Shown: positions 30,190 through 36,248 of the stretch, piece after piece
Layout: each line of letters begins with the position of its first letter
Position numbering within the stretch: the stretch's first letter is position 1
Source of the DNA: Candidatus Latescibacterota bacterium
GTDB lineage: Bacteria > Krumholzibacteriota > Krumholzibacteriia > WVZY01
Reading direction: 5' to 3'
Assembly (NCBI GenBank): GCA_020352495.1
Contig: CP070677.1
Coordinates: 716,301 to 760,656 of the forward strand
DNA: 44,356 nucleotides
Made by a program: the position numbers and the translations under genes
The notes under the pieces: generated by a model
What the model was told of the DNA's origin: nothing
Seen by the model: the letters and a program-made list of their open reading frames with translations, nothing else
Database searches by the model: none

Positions 30190-31536
30190 TTAATTGGCGC
30201 GCTTCGCACGTTTACCTGCCTTTACTTGACGTCCTGCCCGGGAATTGCTCTGCGCGACTTTTTTGTGCGACTTTTTGCTCACACGTTGATCTTTTGCCGT
30301 GCCGGCCTTTTTCGCACTGACCTTTTTCGAACCCGAGCGATTCACTCTATTGTTTTGCTTGAGCTTTTCACGCATTTTGGTGTAGTCGTTCTTGCTTTTG
30401 ACAAAGGTGTTTCTCGTTGACCGCACCACTCGCTCCTGACCGCCCGTCTTACTCGAGGTGGATTTGGATTTGACCGTGCTTCTCCTCGTTGGTGACTTCG
30501 GCGCCACGGTGCGCGTGTTCTTTATTGCCTTCGAATTGTTGACGCGGTTCGAGTTTTCGATCCGTCTTGCCGTCCGCTTGGCGATCGATGTCTTGTTTTT
30601 GTTGGTCCTTTCGCTCACCGTCCGAAGCTCGGAGGATTTCACGACCCGTTTGGTCTTCCGATCGATGTCAGGATCGCGAAGATGCTTGGTCCCGGTCACC
30701 TGCCGGATATCCCGCATGTCCTTCGCAGCGGTGCGGTTGATCTTCGCATACCGCGTGAGCTCGTTCCGAATCTCGCGTTTCGGGTGGATCACCCGGTAGG
30801 GATCCTTCGCGTGGACCCGGTACTGTCGGTGTGCGGCACAGTGTCCGCGACAGTACGACCGCGTGCCGTAGTAGTCGTGCCATCCGACACAGAGATAGCT
30901 TGGATAACGCACGTACTCTCTGACGTAGAATCGCGCGTAGCTCACCGCGACCAGACTCCGACGACACCCCGCCGGTAGAATCGAGAAATAGAACAGCCTG
31001 GAGGCAATGAACGGATCGCCGTAGATCCGAAATCCAATCTGCGGTCCGAAAATCCCAACGCCGTAGTGAGCGAAACTAAACGGCACCGGGCTCATGACGG
31101 CAAAAGCGAAGGCGACTCCTCTGCCAAAATACGGATCATAAAATCCGAAGTCTCGCAGGCGGTACCGGTACACCCGGCCGCCGATGAGGTAGGCGTCATC
31201 GAACGGCGAGAGCGGGTGGATCACGTGTATATAGCCCTCGGTATCGATCACATAGACCGTCGTGTAACAGCTGCGGGACGCCCTGACATACAAGACGACA
31301 TCATCGGCAGACGGATATACGTCGTACGCATAATCGCCATCGTAGTAGTAATCGTCATCGTAGTAGTAGCCCTCGTCGTCATAACCTCGACCCAACCTCA
31401 CACTGACATCCGCCGATCCGGACGAGTACGCCACTCCGACGTGAACACCGGCGCTCGAGGATCCCACCCACACCGCAGCAAGCATGACTGTCCCCACGAT
31501 CAGCGCCAAAAGCATCCTATTAACGGTTGTTTTCAT
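30190..31536 (-). CDS. Secreted DUF4384-like protein with Tyr/Asp-rich and Lys/Arg-rich segments
   Basis: 448 residues. Signal peptide (about 1-29, ending SSSAG), a Tyr/Asp tract (51-74, six-residue repeats of YYYDD type), a DUF4384-like domain (about 80-175, VYVIDTEGYIHVIHPLSPFDDAYLIGG), a cysteine-containing part (C191, C216, C229, C233) and a very basic, low-complexity tail (about 240-448, many K/R/S/T). The acidic and basic parts suggest binding to polyanions, mineral or envelope. ATG 31536 overlaps the FN3 lipoprotein stop (ATGA) and has GGAGG 7 bases upstream, so the two are one operon. A weak hairpin (ACGCTC/GAGCGT, near 30120-30140) follows the stop but has no U-tract. Confidence 0.8.
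   Translation of the reverse strand: MKTTVNRMLLALIVGTVMLAAVWVGSSSAGVHVGVAYSSGSADVSVRLGRGYDDEGYYYDDDYYYDGDYAYDVYPSADDVVLYVRASRSCYTTVYVIDTEGYIHVIHPLSPFDDAYLIGGRVYRYRLRDFGFYDPYFGRGVAFAFAVMSPVPFSFAHYGVGIFGPQIGFRIYGDPFIASRLFYFSILPAGCRRSLVAVSYARFYVREYVRYPSYLCVGWHDYYGTRSYCRGHCAAHRQYRVHAKDPYRVIHPKREIRNELTRYAKINRTAAKDMRDIRQVTGTKHLRDPDIDRKTKRVVKSSELRTVSERTNKNKTSIAKRTARRIENSNRVNNSKAIKNTRTVAPKSPTRRSTVKSKSTSSKTGGQERVVRSTRNTFVKSKNDYTKMREKLKQNNRVNRSGSKKVSAKKAGTAKDQRVSKKSHKKVAQSNSRAGRQVKAGKRAKRAN
31338..31368 (-). repeat. 18-base in-frame repeat coding the Tyr/Asp tract
   Basis: CATCGTAGTAGTA (plus strand) occurs at 31338-31350 and again at 31356-31368, a period of 18 bases or six codons. It codes YYYDDD/YYYDGD and is a likely site of repeat-number change. 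Confidence 0.6.
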
Positions 31537-32390
31537 CGTGCACCTCCTACTCCAGGGGCCAGCTCTGGGTTACCTTCGGCTTCTTGATACGCCCAATCGA
31601 GGACAACCAAATCGTTCGAAACCGATACCACGAAAACCTTCGCGTACTGGTAGAACTGGCCGTCTTCGATCTGAACGACGTAGCTGTGACCCGGTATCAA
31701 CTCAACCTGTTTGGAGGGAGACCAACCGTCAAAGATATCTGGGGCCCAGTCGACAAAATCGAGATCGACGAAGCCATAGTCCTGGACATCTACTCCGGCC
31801 CCGATTGAAGACCCTTTGCCAAACAGCGTGGCGACGCTGTTGGGGGAGCCGAAGTAGACATCCGTGGTGCTGAGACTCCGATGCTGGCGGCTAAACTCCG
31901 AGAAGTCATAGCCGCTCTCGGCTTCGTTTTGCCCGAAGTCGTGGAGAATCAACCCCGTGCCAGCCGGCCGCGGGGTGTCAAAAACAATGTCTTCACTGAA
32001 TGGACCTTCGTTTCCGGCCTGATCGTAGGCGCGAATGAAGTAAAAGTAGGTAACACCGTTCTCAACATCGGCATCGCGGTAGTCCGTTCTGTGGCGTCCC
32101 AACGAGACGATGTACTCCAATGGTCCATCCACATCGTCACTCCAGAAGAGATCGTACCCGGCGAGGTCGGGTTCAGGGTTCGGATTCCAGTAGAGGTCCA
32201 CGTAACCGTCACCCGTAACGCTGAAAAACCCGTCCGGTGCGCTCGGGGGAGAATCGATGATCACAGGATCTTGGCAGTCGTCGCAGCAACCGGCCAATAG
32301 GATCGGCATTGCCACCAAGAACACGCCGGCGAGCGCGACCCCAAAGATCTCCGCCATTTGTTTCTTGCTTATGCTCAGTTTGTTTCTCAT
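31533..32390 (-). CDS. Lipoprotein with fibronectin type III domain
   Basis: 285 residues. Lipoprotein signal to C35 (LLAGC) followed by CDDC, then one FN3 domain (about 46-130, APDGFFSVTGDGYVDLYWNPNPEPDLAGYDLFWS...TYFYFIRAYDQAGNEGPFSE), and a C-terminal part I do not recognise (ending in QVELIPGHSYVVQIEDGQFYQYAKVFVVS). ATG 32390 has GGAG 6 bases upstream. A perfect sigma-54 promoter (32408-32422) lies just before it, and a sigma-70-like one farther up. First gene of the DUF4384-like operon. Confidence 0.85.
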   Translation of the reverse strand: MRNKLSISKKQMAEIFGVALAGVFLVAMPILLAGCCDDCQDPVIIDSPPSAPDGFFSVTGDGYVDLYWNPNPEPDLAGYDLFWSDDVDGPLEYIVSLGRHRTDYRDADVENGVTYFYFIRAYDQAGNEGPFSEDIVFDTPRPAGTGLILHDFGQNEAESGYDFSEFSRQHRSLSTTDVYFGSPNSVATLFGKGSSIGAGVDVQDYGFVDLDFVDWAPDIFDGWSPSKQVELIPGHSYVVQIEDGQFYQYAKVFVVSVSNDLVVLDWAYQEAEGNPELAPGVGGAR

Positions 32391-32407
32391 CACGCTCTCC
32401 CTATACC

Positions 32408-32422
32408 GCAATGAGCGTGCCA
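32408..32422 (-). promoter_or_regulatory. Sigma-54 (-24/-12) promoter of the FN3/DUF4384 operon
   Basis: TGGCACGCTCATTGC on the minus strand matches the sigma-54 core TGGCAC-N5-TTGC at every invariant base, with correct spacing. The expected start is near 32396, only six bases before the ATG at 32390, so the leader would be almost absent and would cut into the ribosome-binding site. This is an oddity that weakens the call. Two sigma-54 activators lie nearby (33189-36248 and 36729-38117). Confidence 0.65.
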
Positions 32423-32452
32423 CGGACCTACCGAACAACAAGCAAGGCCACA

Positions 32453-32480
32453 GATATACAGTTATTTGGTTTTATCACAA
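32453..32480 (-). promoter_or_regulatory. Sigma-70-like promoter above the sigma-54 site
   Basis: TTGTGA (32475-32480), 16 bases, TATATC (32453-32458) on the minus strand. It would start near 32446 and produce a normal leader with the GGAG site. If real, the FN3 operon has two promoters. Confidence 0.35.
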
Positions 32481-32570
32481 CAGATTACACGAACTTGACG
32501 CCACGGATATCCTGGGGAAAATGGCCAAAAACGCGATCTGGAGACCGCACAGAGCGTGTTCTTACATCGA

Positions 32571-32596
32571 CATGTGTCCTGAATTGAGGACAGATG
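32571..32596. promoter_or_regulatory. Dyad, candidate enhancer (activator-binding) site
   Basis: TGTCCT and AGGACA (32575-32592) form a perfect 6-bp dyad around a 6-base spacer. One mismatched base outside, CAT and ATG extend it to 9 of 10 matching bases per arm. Its centre is about 175 bases above the -12 element, the typical distance for sigma-54 enhancers. Confidence 0.5.
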
Positions 32597-32695
32597 ATCG
32601 TTGGTCCAGGGGCGACGGTGCGGGCGGGTCGAAGGGTGACGGCTCGGGCCGTTTGACAACCATACGGGCGGATCAGGATGCCGATAGAACCAGAA

Positions 32696-32819
32696 TGTTA
32701 AAAGCTGACGTTCACGAACTCCAGGAGTTAATGTTCGAGACCCCACCTCTCGAAATTAACGGACTCCGCATAGCTGGCAGCTGTGCCTCTGGAGTAACCG
32801 TGAACGTCAGCTTTTGGCA
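32696..32819 (+). ncRNA. Candidate Y-shaped structured RNA or inverted-repeat element
   Basis: A 17-bp perfect outer stem (AAAAGCTGACGTTCACG at 32700-32716, complement 32799-32815) extends to 21 bp on the plus strand with two G-U pairs, a G-C and a U-A. It is followed by a 7-bp stem (718-724 with 789-795), then two inner hairpins: 13 bp with one bulge (32727-32760) and 8 bp with one G-U (32768-32786). The G-U pairs exist only if the plus strand is the RNA. No promoter or known family is recognised; a small mobile DNA element is the alternative. Confidence 0.5.
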
Positions 32820-32840
32820 ACCTTACGGTCGCAATGCTCT

Positions 32841-32865
32841 GGAGAAAGTTTGTTGACTATTCTCC
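32841..32865. other. Hairpin GGAGAA/TTCTCC
   Basis: A 6-bp perfect stem with a 13-base loop, 20 bases beyond the Y-shaped element. Weak alone; noted as part of the repeat cluster. Confidence 0.3.
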
Positions 32866-32883
32866 GCTCCGAATCCAGGACAT

Positions 32884-32914
32884 GGATTCTTGGGGATCGA
32901 GTCCCCAAGAATCC
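32884..32914. other. 13-bp perfect hairpin
   Basis: GGATTCTTGGGGA and TCCCCAAGAATCC flank a 5-base loop. A copy of GAATCC at 32871-32876 could compete for the left arm, as in an attenuator. Only TTTCCCCC follows on the plus strand, so it is not a classical terminator. Confidence 0.5.
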
Positions 32915-32929
32915 TTTCCCCCACCAGTT

Positions 32930-32998
32930 GGAAGTTCCTTACGCACGGGATGACTTCCGCGCGTTATTCGGGCAAGACCCGTGCCACACGGAACTTTT
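32930..32998 (+). other. Two-step hairpin ending in TTTT
   Basis: GTTCC (32934-32938) pairs with GGAAC (32990-32994), and inside it GCACGGG (32943-32949) with CCCGTGC (32978-32984). Four Ts follow on the plus strand, so it could end a plus-strand RNA that includes the Y-shaped element. Confidence 0.35.
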
Positions 32999-33165
32999 CG
33001 ATCCCAAATGGGAACTATCAAACCCGTTGAGAAACAATTAGATACGTCGCTTCCCAAATTCCTACACGGCTGAAAAACGCGCCAAAATGTGCAGTCTATT
33101 AAACTTGGGGAGCCCGTGTTGTTGACAAGAAGTGGAACGGCATAACGGACAATAAGATAGTGGGG

Positions 33166-33193
33166 ATTAAAAGTCGTTATAAAGACTTTTAAT
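33166..33193 (-). terminator. Hairpin overlapping the activator gene stop
   Basis: ATTAAAAGTC and GACTTTTAAT form a 10-bp perfect but AT-rich stem with an 8-base loop. It overlaps the stop codon of the TPR activator. No U-tract follows on the minus strand, so termination would be weak. Confidence 0.4.
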
Positions 33194-36100
33194 AAACTCG
33201 GAGGTTGTAGCGCTTGATCTTGGAGAGCAAGCTCGGGTAACTGATACCCAGTTCGATGGCCGCCTGGGATTTGTTCCACCCGTTGCGTTCGAGCGAAGAG
33301 AGAATCTCGCGTTTCTCGAGAGCTTCGATCTGTCCCCGCAACCCGTTCTTCCGGTTCCCATTGCCCCCCGTTTCGCGAGCGGCGTGAACGACCTCGGCGG
33401 GCAGATGCGTCGCGGTAAGCTCTTCCCCGTCATCGGCGAGAATCACCGCGCGCTTGACGATCTTTTCGAGCTCGCGAACGTTGCCCGGCCAGTGGTAAGT
33501 CCGGAGCAGATCCATCGCGATGTCGTTGACGTCGGTAATCACTTTGTTCATCTCTGACGAGTACTTGCGCAAGTAGTGGAAGAACAACAAAGCGATATCC
33601 TCTTTTCTCCGACGCAGCGGAGGAATCTTGAGTGGGAAGTCATTGATCCTGTAATAGAAATCCTCGAGAAACCGTCCTTCGTGACACTGGTTCATCAAAT
33701 CAACCTTGGACGCGCAAATCACCCTCACATTGACGGGTTCGAGGTCGTTGGACCCAACTTTCCGGATCTTCTCGGTGTCGAGGAACTGGAGAAGCTTGCC
33801 TTGCATGGCCAGTGTCGTCTTCCCGATCTCATCGAGAAAGATCGTGCCCCCGTCGGCCCGCCGCAGCAAACCGTCCTTATCGGCCACGGCTCCGGTAAAC
33901 GCGCCCTTGACGTGGCCAAAAAGCTCCGATTCGAGAAGCGACTCGGGCATTGCCGCGCAGTTTACATGGACAAACCGCCGGTCCCTTCGGTCGCTCAAAA
34001 GGTGTATCGCATAGGCGATGAGCCCCTTACCGGTCCCCGTCTCGCCCTGGAGCAGCACGGTGGCATTCGAGTGCGCAACCCGCTCGGAGAGGTTGAGCAG
34101 CTTTATCATCTCGTTGTTTTCAGTGAGAATGCTCTCGAATCCGCTGGCGGCCGGTTTTGCTTTGGGTACGCGTCGCCTCTCGTTGCGGATCAGCTCATAG
34201 ATGGAGAGCGACACCAGCCTGGCATATGCCCCAAGGAAGTGGAGCGCTTCCTGTCCGATAGGGCCCCGGTCCTCTTGTTTGTCTTGGTGGACAAAGATCA
34301 CACCGAGGTCTTCGTTTTCGAACCCAAGCTCCTGAAAGACCAACGTCCCCATCTCGACCTTGACCCTGTCCTGGATGACTCGAAGCTCCGGCTCGTTGTC
34401 CGCCTCGGTGATGAGGAGGCCATGCGAATTCTCTGACTTGGAATGATGTTGATACCATGACAGAATCGCCTTCGCGTCCCCCCGACCCATACCCTCGAGC
34501 GACACGAGCCCGACACCGGATCCCTTGTTCCCCGGTATGGCGACAAACCCCCTATGAGCATTGAGCTTGCCAACGATGAGCTTCAGCGACGCCGCGAGAC
34601 CCGACACAAGCCGATCACGCGAGCGCGATCCGCTTTGGATGTCCCCAAACATCGGGATCTCTTCGAGGATCCTCCGTGTGTCGCGGGCCATCTGACCCTC
34701 GACACGGGAGCGCATCAATCTGAGGAGATTCTGGAATTTGGTGTTTCGCTCCTCGTCGGCAAGACGTGTCGCCTCATATACGGCAAGCAACGCATCATCG
34801 AGGTTTCCAAGCCGTTCCTCGACTGCCGCCAGGAGCACCTGTGAGAGGATCTGGTCTTTCGCTTCTTCGAGTTTGCCAAACCCGACAACGGTATCGGTGA
34901 AGATCTTTTTTGCCTTGAGAGCCGACTCCTGGTTCCTCTTGCGGAGATAGATCCGGCCGAGACGCTGCTGCGAGTGAAGCTGTTCGTACGGATTCCCGTA
35001 TTTCTCGAACATCTCGACGCTCGTCTCGAGACACTTGGCAGCCCGGTCAACCTCGCCTTTTCTGATGTAGCAAAGCCCCTGCGTCCGGTAAAAATAGCCC
35101 ATTTCGTAGAACTCGCCGCAGTTCTTGGCGACTTCGAGACCTTCGTTGACAATCGCCAGGGTCTTGTCGACATTGTTTAGCGCGAAGTGGACGTCTGCCA
35201 TCCGCCTCATGATTTCGGCCGTAATGTCACCCTCGGGAGCGATCTGTCTCGCCTTGCGAAGCGCGTTGTTCAAATTGACCAGCGCCGGTTTGACCATTCC
35301 CCGCGCGATCATCAGCTCACCAAGATACTCGTCCGCCAGGGCCGATTCGCGACCATACCCAAAATCATTGGCCATCGCCTGTCCACGGAGAATCAGCTTC
35401 TCTGCCTTGCAGTACTCCCCGCACTGGACGTACGTACGACCCTGCATGAGAATCGCCTTGGTGAGCTTATCCTGATCTCCTAGCCGCTCGGCCATCGTCG
35501 CCGCACTGGAGAATGCGCTCAGCGCATCGGTGAACCGGCGGAGCTTCGCATAGACGACACCGAGGTTTAGCTGAACTCGGATCAGGTGTTGTGTGAGTCC
35601 CAGCGACTTGGCAAGCTCGAGCGACTTCGAGAGGGACGCCAGGGAGCGGTTCCAGCGACACGCGTTTTTGTGAAGGAGACCAAGGTTGTTGTAGACGTAC
35701 GCGATTCCGATCCGGTCTTCGATGCGCCTGTATGAAGAAAGCGCATCCGTGAAAAACTCCTCCGCCTCGCCCGTCTGCCCCAGCCGGTGATAACAGTTCG
35801 CCAGCAGAAGCTGGACATCGGCTACTTCCCGATGCTCGTCCGAGTGTTTGAGACGGCGGTACGCACTGAAACCGATCTTGAGGGCGTTTTCGTAATGCCC
35901 TTGTGCGTAGAGGATATATGCTTCTCGAAAATCGACCTTGCCCAGCGCCTCGGTCGGCACGTCATCACCAAGCAGCGTCCGTGCCTTCTCGAGGAGCTTC
36001 CATGCGTCTTTGTAACTGCCTTTTTTGCGGTGGCAGTCACCGATTCGCAGAAAGAGCCGGAATCGGTCGGGAAAATCGTTTAAGTCGTTGGATTGTAGAG

Positions 36101-36248
36101 CTTTTGTGAAGTACTCGATGGCGGCGGAGTAGTTCTCCGTGGCGAAATGCATCTGCCCGATTTCCTCATTGGGCGAGAAGACCGATTCAGGATGCTTCCG
36201 TCGCTTGTTGTTATGAAGCCCGTCTTTATCGTCCCGTGCGTTCGACAT
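33189..36248 (-). CDS. Sigma-54-dependent activator with N-terminal TPR repeats and GAF-like domain
   Basis: 1019 residues. Order: about ten TPR-like repeats (30-515, e.g. [26 protein letters not shown]), a GAF-like domain (about 545-690), an AAA+ sigma-54 interaction domain with Walker A GETGTGKG (735-742), GAFTGA (782-787), Walker B GTIFLDE (801-807), then a Fis-type helix-turn-helix ([23 protein letters not shown], 993-1014). There is no receiver domain, so input is by protein or ligand binding through TPR/GAF, not phosphorylation. The intact GAFTGA implies sigma-54 contact. It follows the small secreted gene by 55 bases. ATG 36248 lacks a clear ribosome-binding site. Confidence 0.93.

Follow-up and report, generated by a model that had tools for sequence, protein, structure and literature searches.

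The branched structure at positions 32696-32819 is, according to our comparison of related loci, the 3' domain of a predicted RNA gene of about 260 nt, which would be read on the minus strand from approximately 32960 to 32700. In the window (by which we mean the whole stretch of 44,356 nt that was analysed), this gene lies between a gene for a sigma54 activator and a gene for a lipoprotein, both on the same strand. The best explanation of these data is a non-coding RNA gene which depends on sigma54 and is activated together with the lipoprotein gene, a reading that we consider quite probable. The RNA very probably corresponds to an independent minus-strand gene, and not to a part of a neighbouring transcript.

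The branched structure and the predicted RNA gene

The structure is based on a perfect inverted repeat of 17 bp (32700-32716 and 32799-32815, the arms being 82 nt apart). Read as plus-strand RNA, 32696-32819 folds into a 21-bp outer stem, a second stem of about 8 bp and two hairpins, as the original prediction had described. The energy of this fold is -67.4 kcal/mol, while shuffled sequences average -31.3 (sd 3.5; z -10.25); the minus-strand fold has -61.4 (z -6.07). In both strands, none of 200 shuffles is as good. Such energies, together with stems in which compensatory changes are found (0 of 500 shuffles reach the observed values), support the proposal of a structured RNA with a three-way shape. 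The original prediction could not match the shape to a known family, and this agrees with our search: The covariance models of Rfam 15, including those for Qrr, GlmZ/GlmY, CrcZ, Y RNA and T-box, give no match to the window or the region at the gathering score. When the search is loosened to E ≤ 5, only three unrelated, sub-threshold chance hits appear.

The limits originally given, 32696-32819, are correct for the Y domain, but they take in no more than the 3' half of a conserved unit that reaches to about 32960. In the five close sequences that we have compared, conservation overruns these edges and starts about 15 nt past a sigma54 promoter. In this order, the conserved block consists of a 5' hairpin that hardly varies, a stretch reading GGUGGGGG, another hairpin whose changes are paired, the Y domain and, last, a U-tract. 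The features of the predicted gene are the following:

32700-32960, minus strand: predicted RNA gene, about 261 nt, a conserved block from the sigma54 start to a short U-tract
32930-32958, minus strand: 5' hairpin P1, GGAAGUCAUCCCGUGCGUAAGGAACUUCC, nearly invariant in the close-homologue alignment A3
32919-32925, minus strand: first GGUGGGG copy, within CUGGUGGGGGAAAGG; GGTGGGGG is invariant in alignment A3
32886-32912, minus strand: hairpin P2, AUUCUUGGGGACUCGAUCCCCAAGAAU, whose changes in the homologues are paired
32841-32865, minus strand: hairpin P3, from the predicted fold, weakly conserved in sequence
32817-32832, minus strand: hairpin P4, from the predicted fold, weakly conserved in sequence
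32696-32819, minus strand: Y domain, a long outer stem ending in a U-tract, an inner stem and two hairpins (folds and covariation)
32768-32787, minus strand: first Y arm, AGCUGC/GGCU hairpin, with invariant pairs in alignment A4
32737-32751, minus strand: second Y arm, GAGA-GGUGGGG-UCUC hairpin
32741-32747, minus strand: GGUGGGG loop of the second Y arm, near-invariant across the class

The U-tract which follows the outer stem has 6-7 T in three close homologues and 4 T in the window.

A coding function was considered and rejected. The open reading frames that cover the RNA differ among homologues in frame, start and end, and the indels do not come in threes. A 199-aa frame of the plus strand (32257-32856) and a 140-aa frame of the minus strand (32857-33279), which overlap conserved RNA features, are taken as chance. 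A short repeated peptide, RSxLISRGGVS, is found over the hairpin because the bases of the hairpin are conserved.

The original prediction had a small transposon-like element as its competing idea, and a perfect terminal inverted repeat is indeed what a MITE or a REP-like element may present. Nevertheless, only one copy of the Y element is found in the 4.31-Mb genome (nucleotide search, E ≤ 0.001), the weaker matches being its own two arms; in relatives it is also present at one place per genome, in a fixed position between orthologous genes, and its stems covary. Multiple copies at unrelated sites were not found. Copy number and class-wide synteny refute the idea of mobile DNA, to which we give practically no credence.

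Neighbouring genes, promoters and strand

The predicted RNA gene is surrounded by these genes and control sites:

33189-36248, minus strand: gene for a TPR-containing sigma54 enhancer-binding protein, 1019 aa, with TPR repeats, Sigma54_activat, AAA lid and a Fis-type HTH
32972-32986, minus strand: sigma54 promoter of the RNA gene, TGGCACGGGTCTTGC, with predicted start at about 32960; found in a genome pattern scan and kept by all five close sequences
32575-32592, no strand assigned: candidate enhancer site, TGTCCT-N6-AGGACA, of the TGT-N12-ACA type, which is enriched in the RNA-lipoprotein interval
32408-32422, minus strand: second sigma54 promoter, that of the lipoprotein gene, TGGCACGCTCATTGC, directly ahead of this gene
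31533-32390, minus strand: lipoprotein gene, 285 aa, with a lipobox (LAGC) and an FN3-like domain
30190-31536, minus strand: likely next gene of the lipoprotein operon, which overlaps the lipoprotein stop

The activator shows matches to PF00158 (1.3e-61), TPR_12 and HTH_8. The FN3 assignment of the lipoprotein is based on a Pfam match in two of five members and on sequence similarity to solved FN3 domains. The product of the next gene has a basic C-terminus and a weak DUF4384 match, below the cut-off. From its predicted sigma54 start (window 32390-32422), the lipoprotein mRNA would have only some 6 nt ahead of the ATG, and it may be almost leaderless or begin translation further in.

A nucleotide search covering 98 genomes gave four close homologues beyond chance, three from the same family and one from another family of the same order. 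They are found between a TPR-containing sigma54 activator and an FN3-like lipoprotein wherever the contig is long enough; that of L003 stops short of the activator gene. The gaps of the homologues were aligned in the minus sense because both genes and the conserved sequence are on the minus strand. The lipoprotein is present in 74 of the 78 genomes of the class, some of the matches covering the FN3 part only. Throughout the class the gene order is activator, a long gap (about 600-1160 nt) and lipoprotein. Related loci are found in records titled Krumholzibacteria, Eisenbacteria, Latescibacterota and Zixibacteria, among others. In L045 (CP070631, same genus), the lipoprotein gene and the gene following it have the same order as in the window; the RNA is absent from this locus, which is uninformative, as an N-run and an unrelated peptidase gene are found upstream of the lipoprotein. 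A different arrangement appears in L076-L122, mainly Zixibacteria: A relative of the lipoprotein follows a shorter sigma54 activator (about 450-500 aa), and the gap is mostly 120-245 nt, without the long RNA slot.

Sigma54 sites are frequent in this gap and follow the direction of the genes. A loose sigma54 pattern is found in the zone before the RNA in 30 of 46 loci in the sense strand vs 2 in the antisense strand, and in the zone before the lipoprotein in 33 vs 1 of 46. It is missed in 16 of the 46 loci, in most of which a near match can be seen by eye; a relaxed core pattern gives 36 sense and 4 antisense matches. Such data are what a sigma54-dependent small RNA gene would present: a conserved -24/-12 promoter, RpoN encoded in the genome and a candidate activating sequence nearby. 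This last sequence, TGT-N12-ACA, has 50 occurrences in the interval from the RNA to the lipoprotein gene, spread over 37 of the 46 loci, vs 2-13 for the other spacings of TGT/ACA (6-11 and 13-19); upstream of the RNA it does not exceed background (7 sites). Family f4 loci often have two such sites about 21-22 bp apart, an arrangement that an enhancer would be expected to show. The site lies downstream of the RNA promoter and ahead of the lipoprotein gene. Control of both promoters by the neighbouring TPR activator is likely.

The same control region bears on two other interpretations. If the lipoprotein mRNA were long and had this RNA as its 5' untranslated region, the RNA might act in cis as a riboswitch or attenuator. 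At every locus it precedes the lipoprotein gene in the same orientation, and its terminator-like end would permit attenuation. However, the lipoprotein has a sigma54 promoter of its own, which is 32 nt upstream of the gene in the window and present in most loci, and the RNA is separated from the gene by the enhancer-like site and by a few hundred nt with little conservation. We consider such a leader rather unlikely. The RNA might also be the 3' end of the activator mRNA, either a terminator or a processed 3' UTR, as it is downstream of that gene and on the same strand. This is highly improbable: A conserved sigma54 promoter separates gene and RNA, and conservation starts right after this promoter.

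The original prediction suggested a plus-strand RNA, with three G-U pairs possible only in that strand. For the copy in the window this is correct, and its plus fold is better by 6-9 kcal/mol. It does not extend to the relatives: In all four close homologues the minus fold is better, by 8.7 to 20.6 kcal/mol, and the gene-sense fold is also better in 13 of 13 f4 sequences and in most f6 sequences. In the gene sense, cells with G-U exceed those with A-C in three alignments (19:4, 68:14 and 76:10), counts which lean to this sense since the structures were predicted in it. The promoters, the U-tracts and the gene order, on which this bias has no effect, also point to the minus strand, as do both neighbouring genes. 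We thus place the RNA gene on the minus strand from the combined sequence evidence, and a plus-strand RNA has very little probability left.

RNA families in the class

In 46 loci, a number which includes the five close sequences, the activator-lipoprotein gap contains a branched RNA whose hairpin loop reads AGGUGGGGU. The stems that flank the loop change in sequence and stay paired: GAGA/UCUC, CCGGAA/UUCCGG, CAGCGA/UCGCUG and CUGGA/UCCAG are examples. A few genera carry GAUGUGGGGUC in place of the usual loop.

Covariation was measured in two alignments. The five close sequences, which are few and related, show double changes at 11 of 44 pairs (18 cells). The result is stronger for family f6, with 16 sequences and double changes at 20 of 41 pairs (60 cells). 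In both cases all five measures beat 500 of 500 shuffles, and the signal collapses when the partners are slid by 1-3 columns.

A covariance model built from f6 alone (R2) matches 29 of the 78 class genomes at one place each, which is the same locus wherever the locus was fetched; in four cases there is a second match, which is this place read on the opposite strand. It also matches f7 and other sequences outside its build, at E 7e-10 to 1e-4. Its matches to f1 and f4 are weak and depend on the hairpin, and its best match in the window falls at the GGUGGGG hairpin, on the minus strand, with a weak score (E 0.65). A search with the f1 model (R1) does not reach the other families. The proposed homology between the RNA of the window and that of f6 is founded on position, promoter, architecture and loop taken together.

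Other RNA-like sequences are found in some of these loci. In three f6 loci (L141, L146 and L156), a second AGGUGGGG hairpin is present about 150 nt downstream, directly before a T run (AGGTGGGGCTCTTTT). In L034 (f4), L105 and 15 further f4/f8 loci, the Y RNA is closely followed by a second, very conserved element with the sequence GUCAGGGGUAU...GGAAUGGCGAGAUCC...GCGAGUAUGGACAUCCCCUCCGGUGCUCGC...GCCCCUGAC. It is preceded by a sigma70-like TTGAC/TATAAT pair in several loci, its loop CCCCUCC could pair with GGUGGGG at all positions but one, a U-U, and Rfam gives no match to it. Six loci in Eisenbacteria and Latescibacterota records (L053, L057, L060, L059, L092 and L102) have the same slot with two sigma54 sites, and contain two kinds of RNA-like sequence which are unrelated to that of the window: One has GGAGGGGGGGACCUCC at its start and, at its end, the stem GGACACCGGUC.../...GGUGUCC with a U-tract, the other has about 150 nt and ends in GGGGCUCA-U(n). 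In the wider, tentative reading given at the end of the next section, the position would predate the sequence which occupies it.

Possible mechanism and comparison with known systems

The following mechanism would account for these features. Sigma54 RNA polymerase would sit at 32972-32986 and at 32408-32422, and the TPR-type activator from the adjacent gene would bind the TGT-N12-ACA enhancer between the promoters and fire both, so that the RNA and the surface lipoprotein would be made together on one signal. The RNA would start near 32960 and have two folded domains, one of hairpins at the 5' side and the Y; it would end at the outer stem and U-tract, which would double as an intrinsic terminator. 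The exposed GGUGGGG loop, on covarying stems, is the most likely working part. We favour, with some reserve, an action of this loop on a partner in trans, which may be a protein or an RNA with CCCCAC(C).

As for such a partner, ACCCCACCT, the sequence complementary to the loop, shows no enrichment genome-wide: It occurs at 23 sites, and the reversed control at 35. An mRNA target recognized through it was rejected: Three of the sites are one repeated sequence, and the gene starts show no clear pattern. The repeated sequence is a 30-mer, GGTAAGTAAGACCCCACCTGAGCAGTGCAC, found three times in the genome (G000:C1 78540, 898008 and 910352; L160, L165 and L166), and is probably a repeated or mobile sequence. 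The tRNA-Val(CAC) of this genome ends in CCCCCACCA, which would pair with the GGUGGGG loop. Reading of the tRNA 3' end (CCCCACC-A) by the loop is a lead only; the loop hardly varies, so covariation is uninformative in this case.

Sigma54-controlled RNA genes are known in other bacteria, such as the Qrr sRNAs (LuxO) and those of the CrcZ and NfiS type. The RNA described here is like them in its control and differs in having no sequence or Rfam relation to them; neither Hfq nor CsrA was found in the genome of the window, which is 91.5% complete. A protein sponge of the CsrB/CrcZ type was rejected, as no match to CsrA is present and the repeated motif is GGUGGGG, not ANGGA; sponging of the Hfq/Crc type (CrcZ) was judged solely by the absence of Hfq. 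The bacterial Y RNAs (YrlA, in the Rsr/RtcR RNA-repair operon) are sigma54-controlled branched RNAs encoded near a sigma54 activator gene. RtcR carries CARF where the activator of the window has its TPR region. A bacterial Y RNA was also rejected: The TROVE/Rsr protein was not found in this 91.5% complete genome, and there is no Rfam match. RtcR is linked with sigma54 in a passage of PMC9879122.

The closest comparison is the glmY-qseEGF locus of E. coli, which joins the sigma54-driven sRNA glmY, a sigma54 activator and a lipoprotein, and where the QseF site is TGT-N12-ACA (PMC6075780). The locus in the window has the same three kinds of component (compare GlmY, QseF and QseG) and an enhancer-like site with the same spacing. 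On the other hand, the sensor kinase/response-regulator pair is absent, and TPR repeats are found in the activator; the lipoprotein is among the targets of sigma54, while QseG belongs to the operon of the activator; and Rfam does not link the RNA to GlmY or GlmZ. An Hfq/RapZ sRNA of the GlmY/GlmZ type was rejected, since Hfq was not found in the 91.5% complete genome. We suggest glmY-qseEGF as the best analogy for how the locus may work and do not claim kinship.

A sigma54-controlled regulatory RNA beside its activator is thus a known kind of system. The new features are the RNA of the window itself, which has no match in Rfam 15, its near-invariant loop, its class-wide spread and its pairing with a TPR activator and a lipoprotein. 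Our literature search did not find a paper naming both Krumholzibacteri- and small RNA. A wider reading, which we put forward tentatively and would not yet bet on, is that of a large new class of sigma54-dependent structured RNAs in FCB-group phyla, encoded between a TPR-type activator and the lipoprotein which it targets, and working with the GGUGGGG loop and without Hfq or CsrA, with the tRNA 3' end as a sub-reading.

If these interpretations are correct, the locus would represent an RNA family spread over a whole class of uncultured bacteria, from which descriptions of small RNAs seem to be few. It would present a genetic layout like that of glmY-qseEGF in an unrelated phylum, in a genome in which Hfq and CsrA were not found. 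It would then be a test case for how regulatory RNA is used when the usual RNA chaperones are missing, perhaps as part of an envelope response, and the short invariant loop would be the obvious experimental handle.
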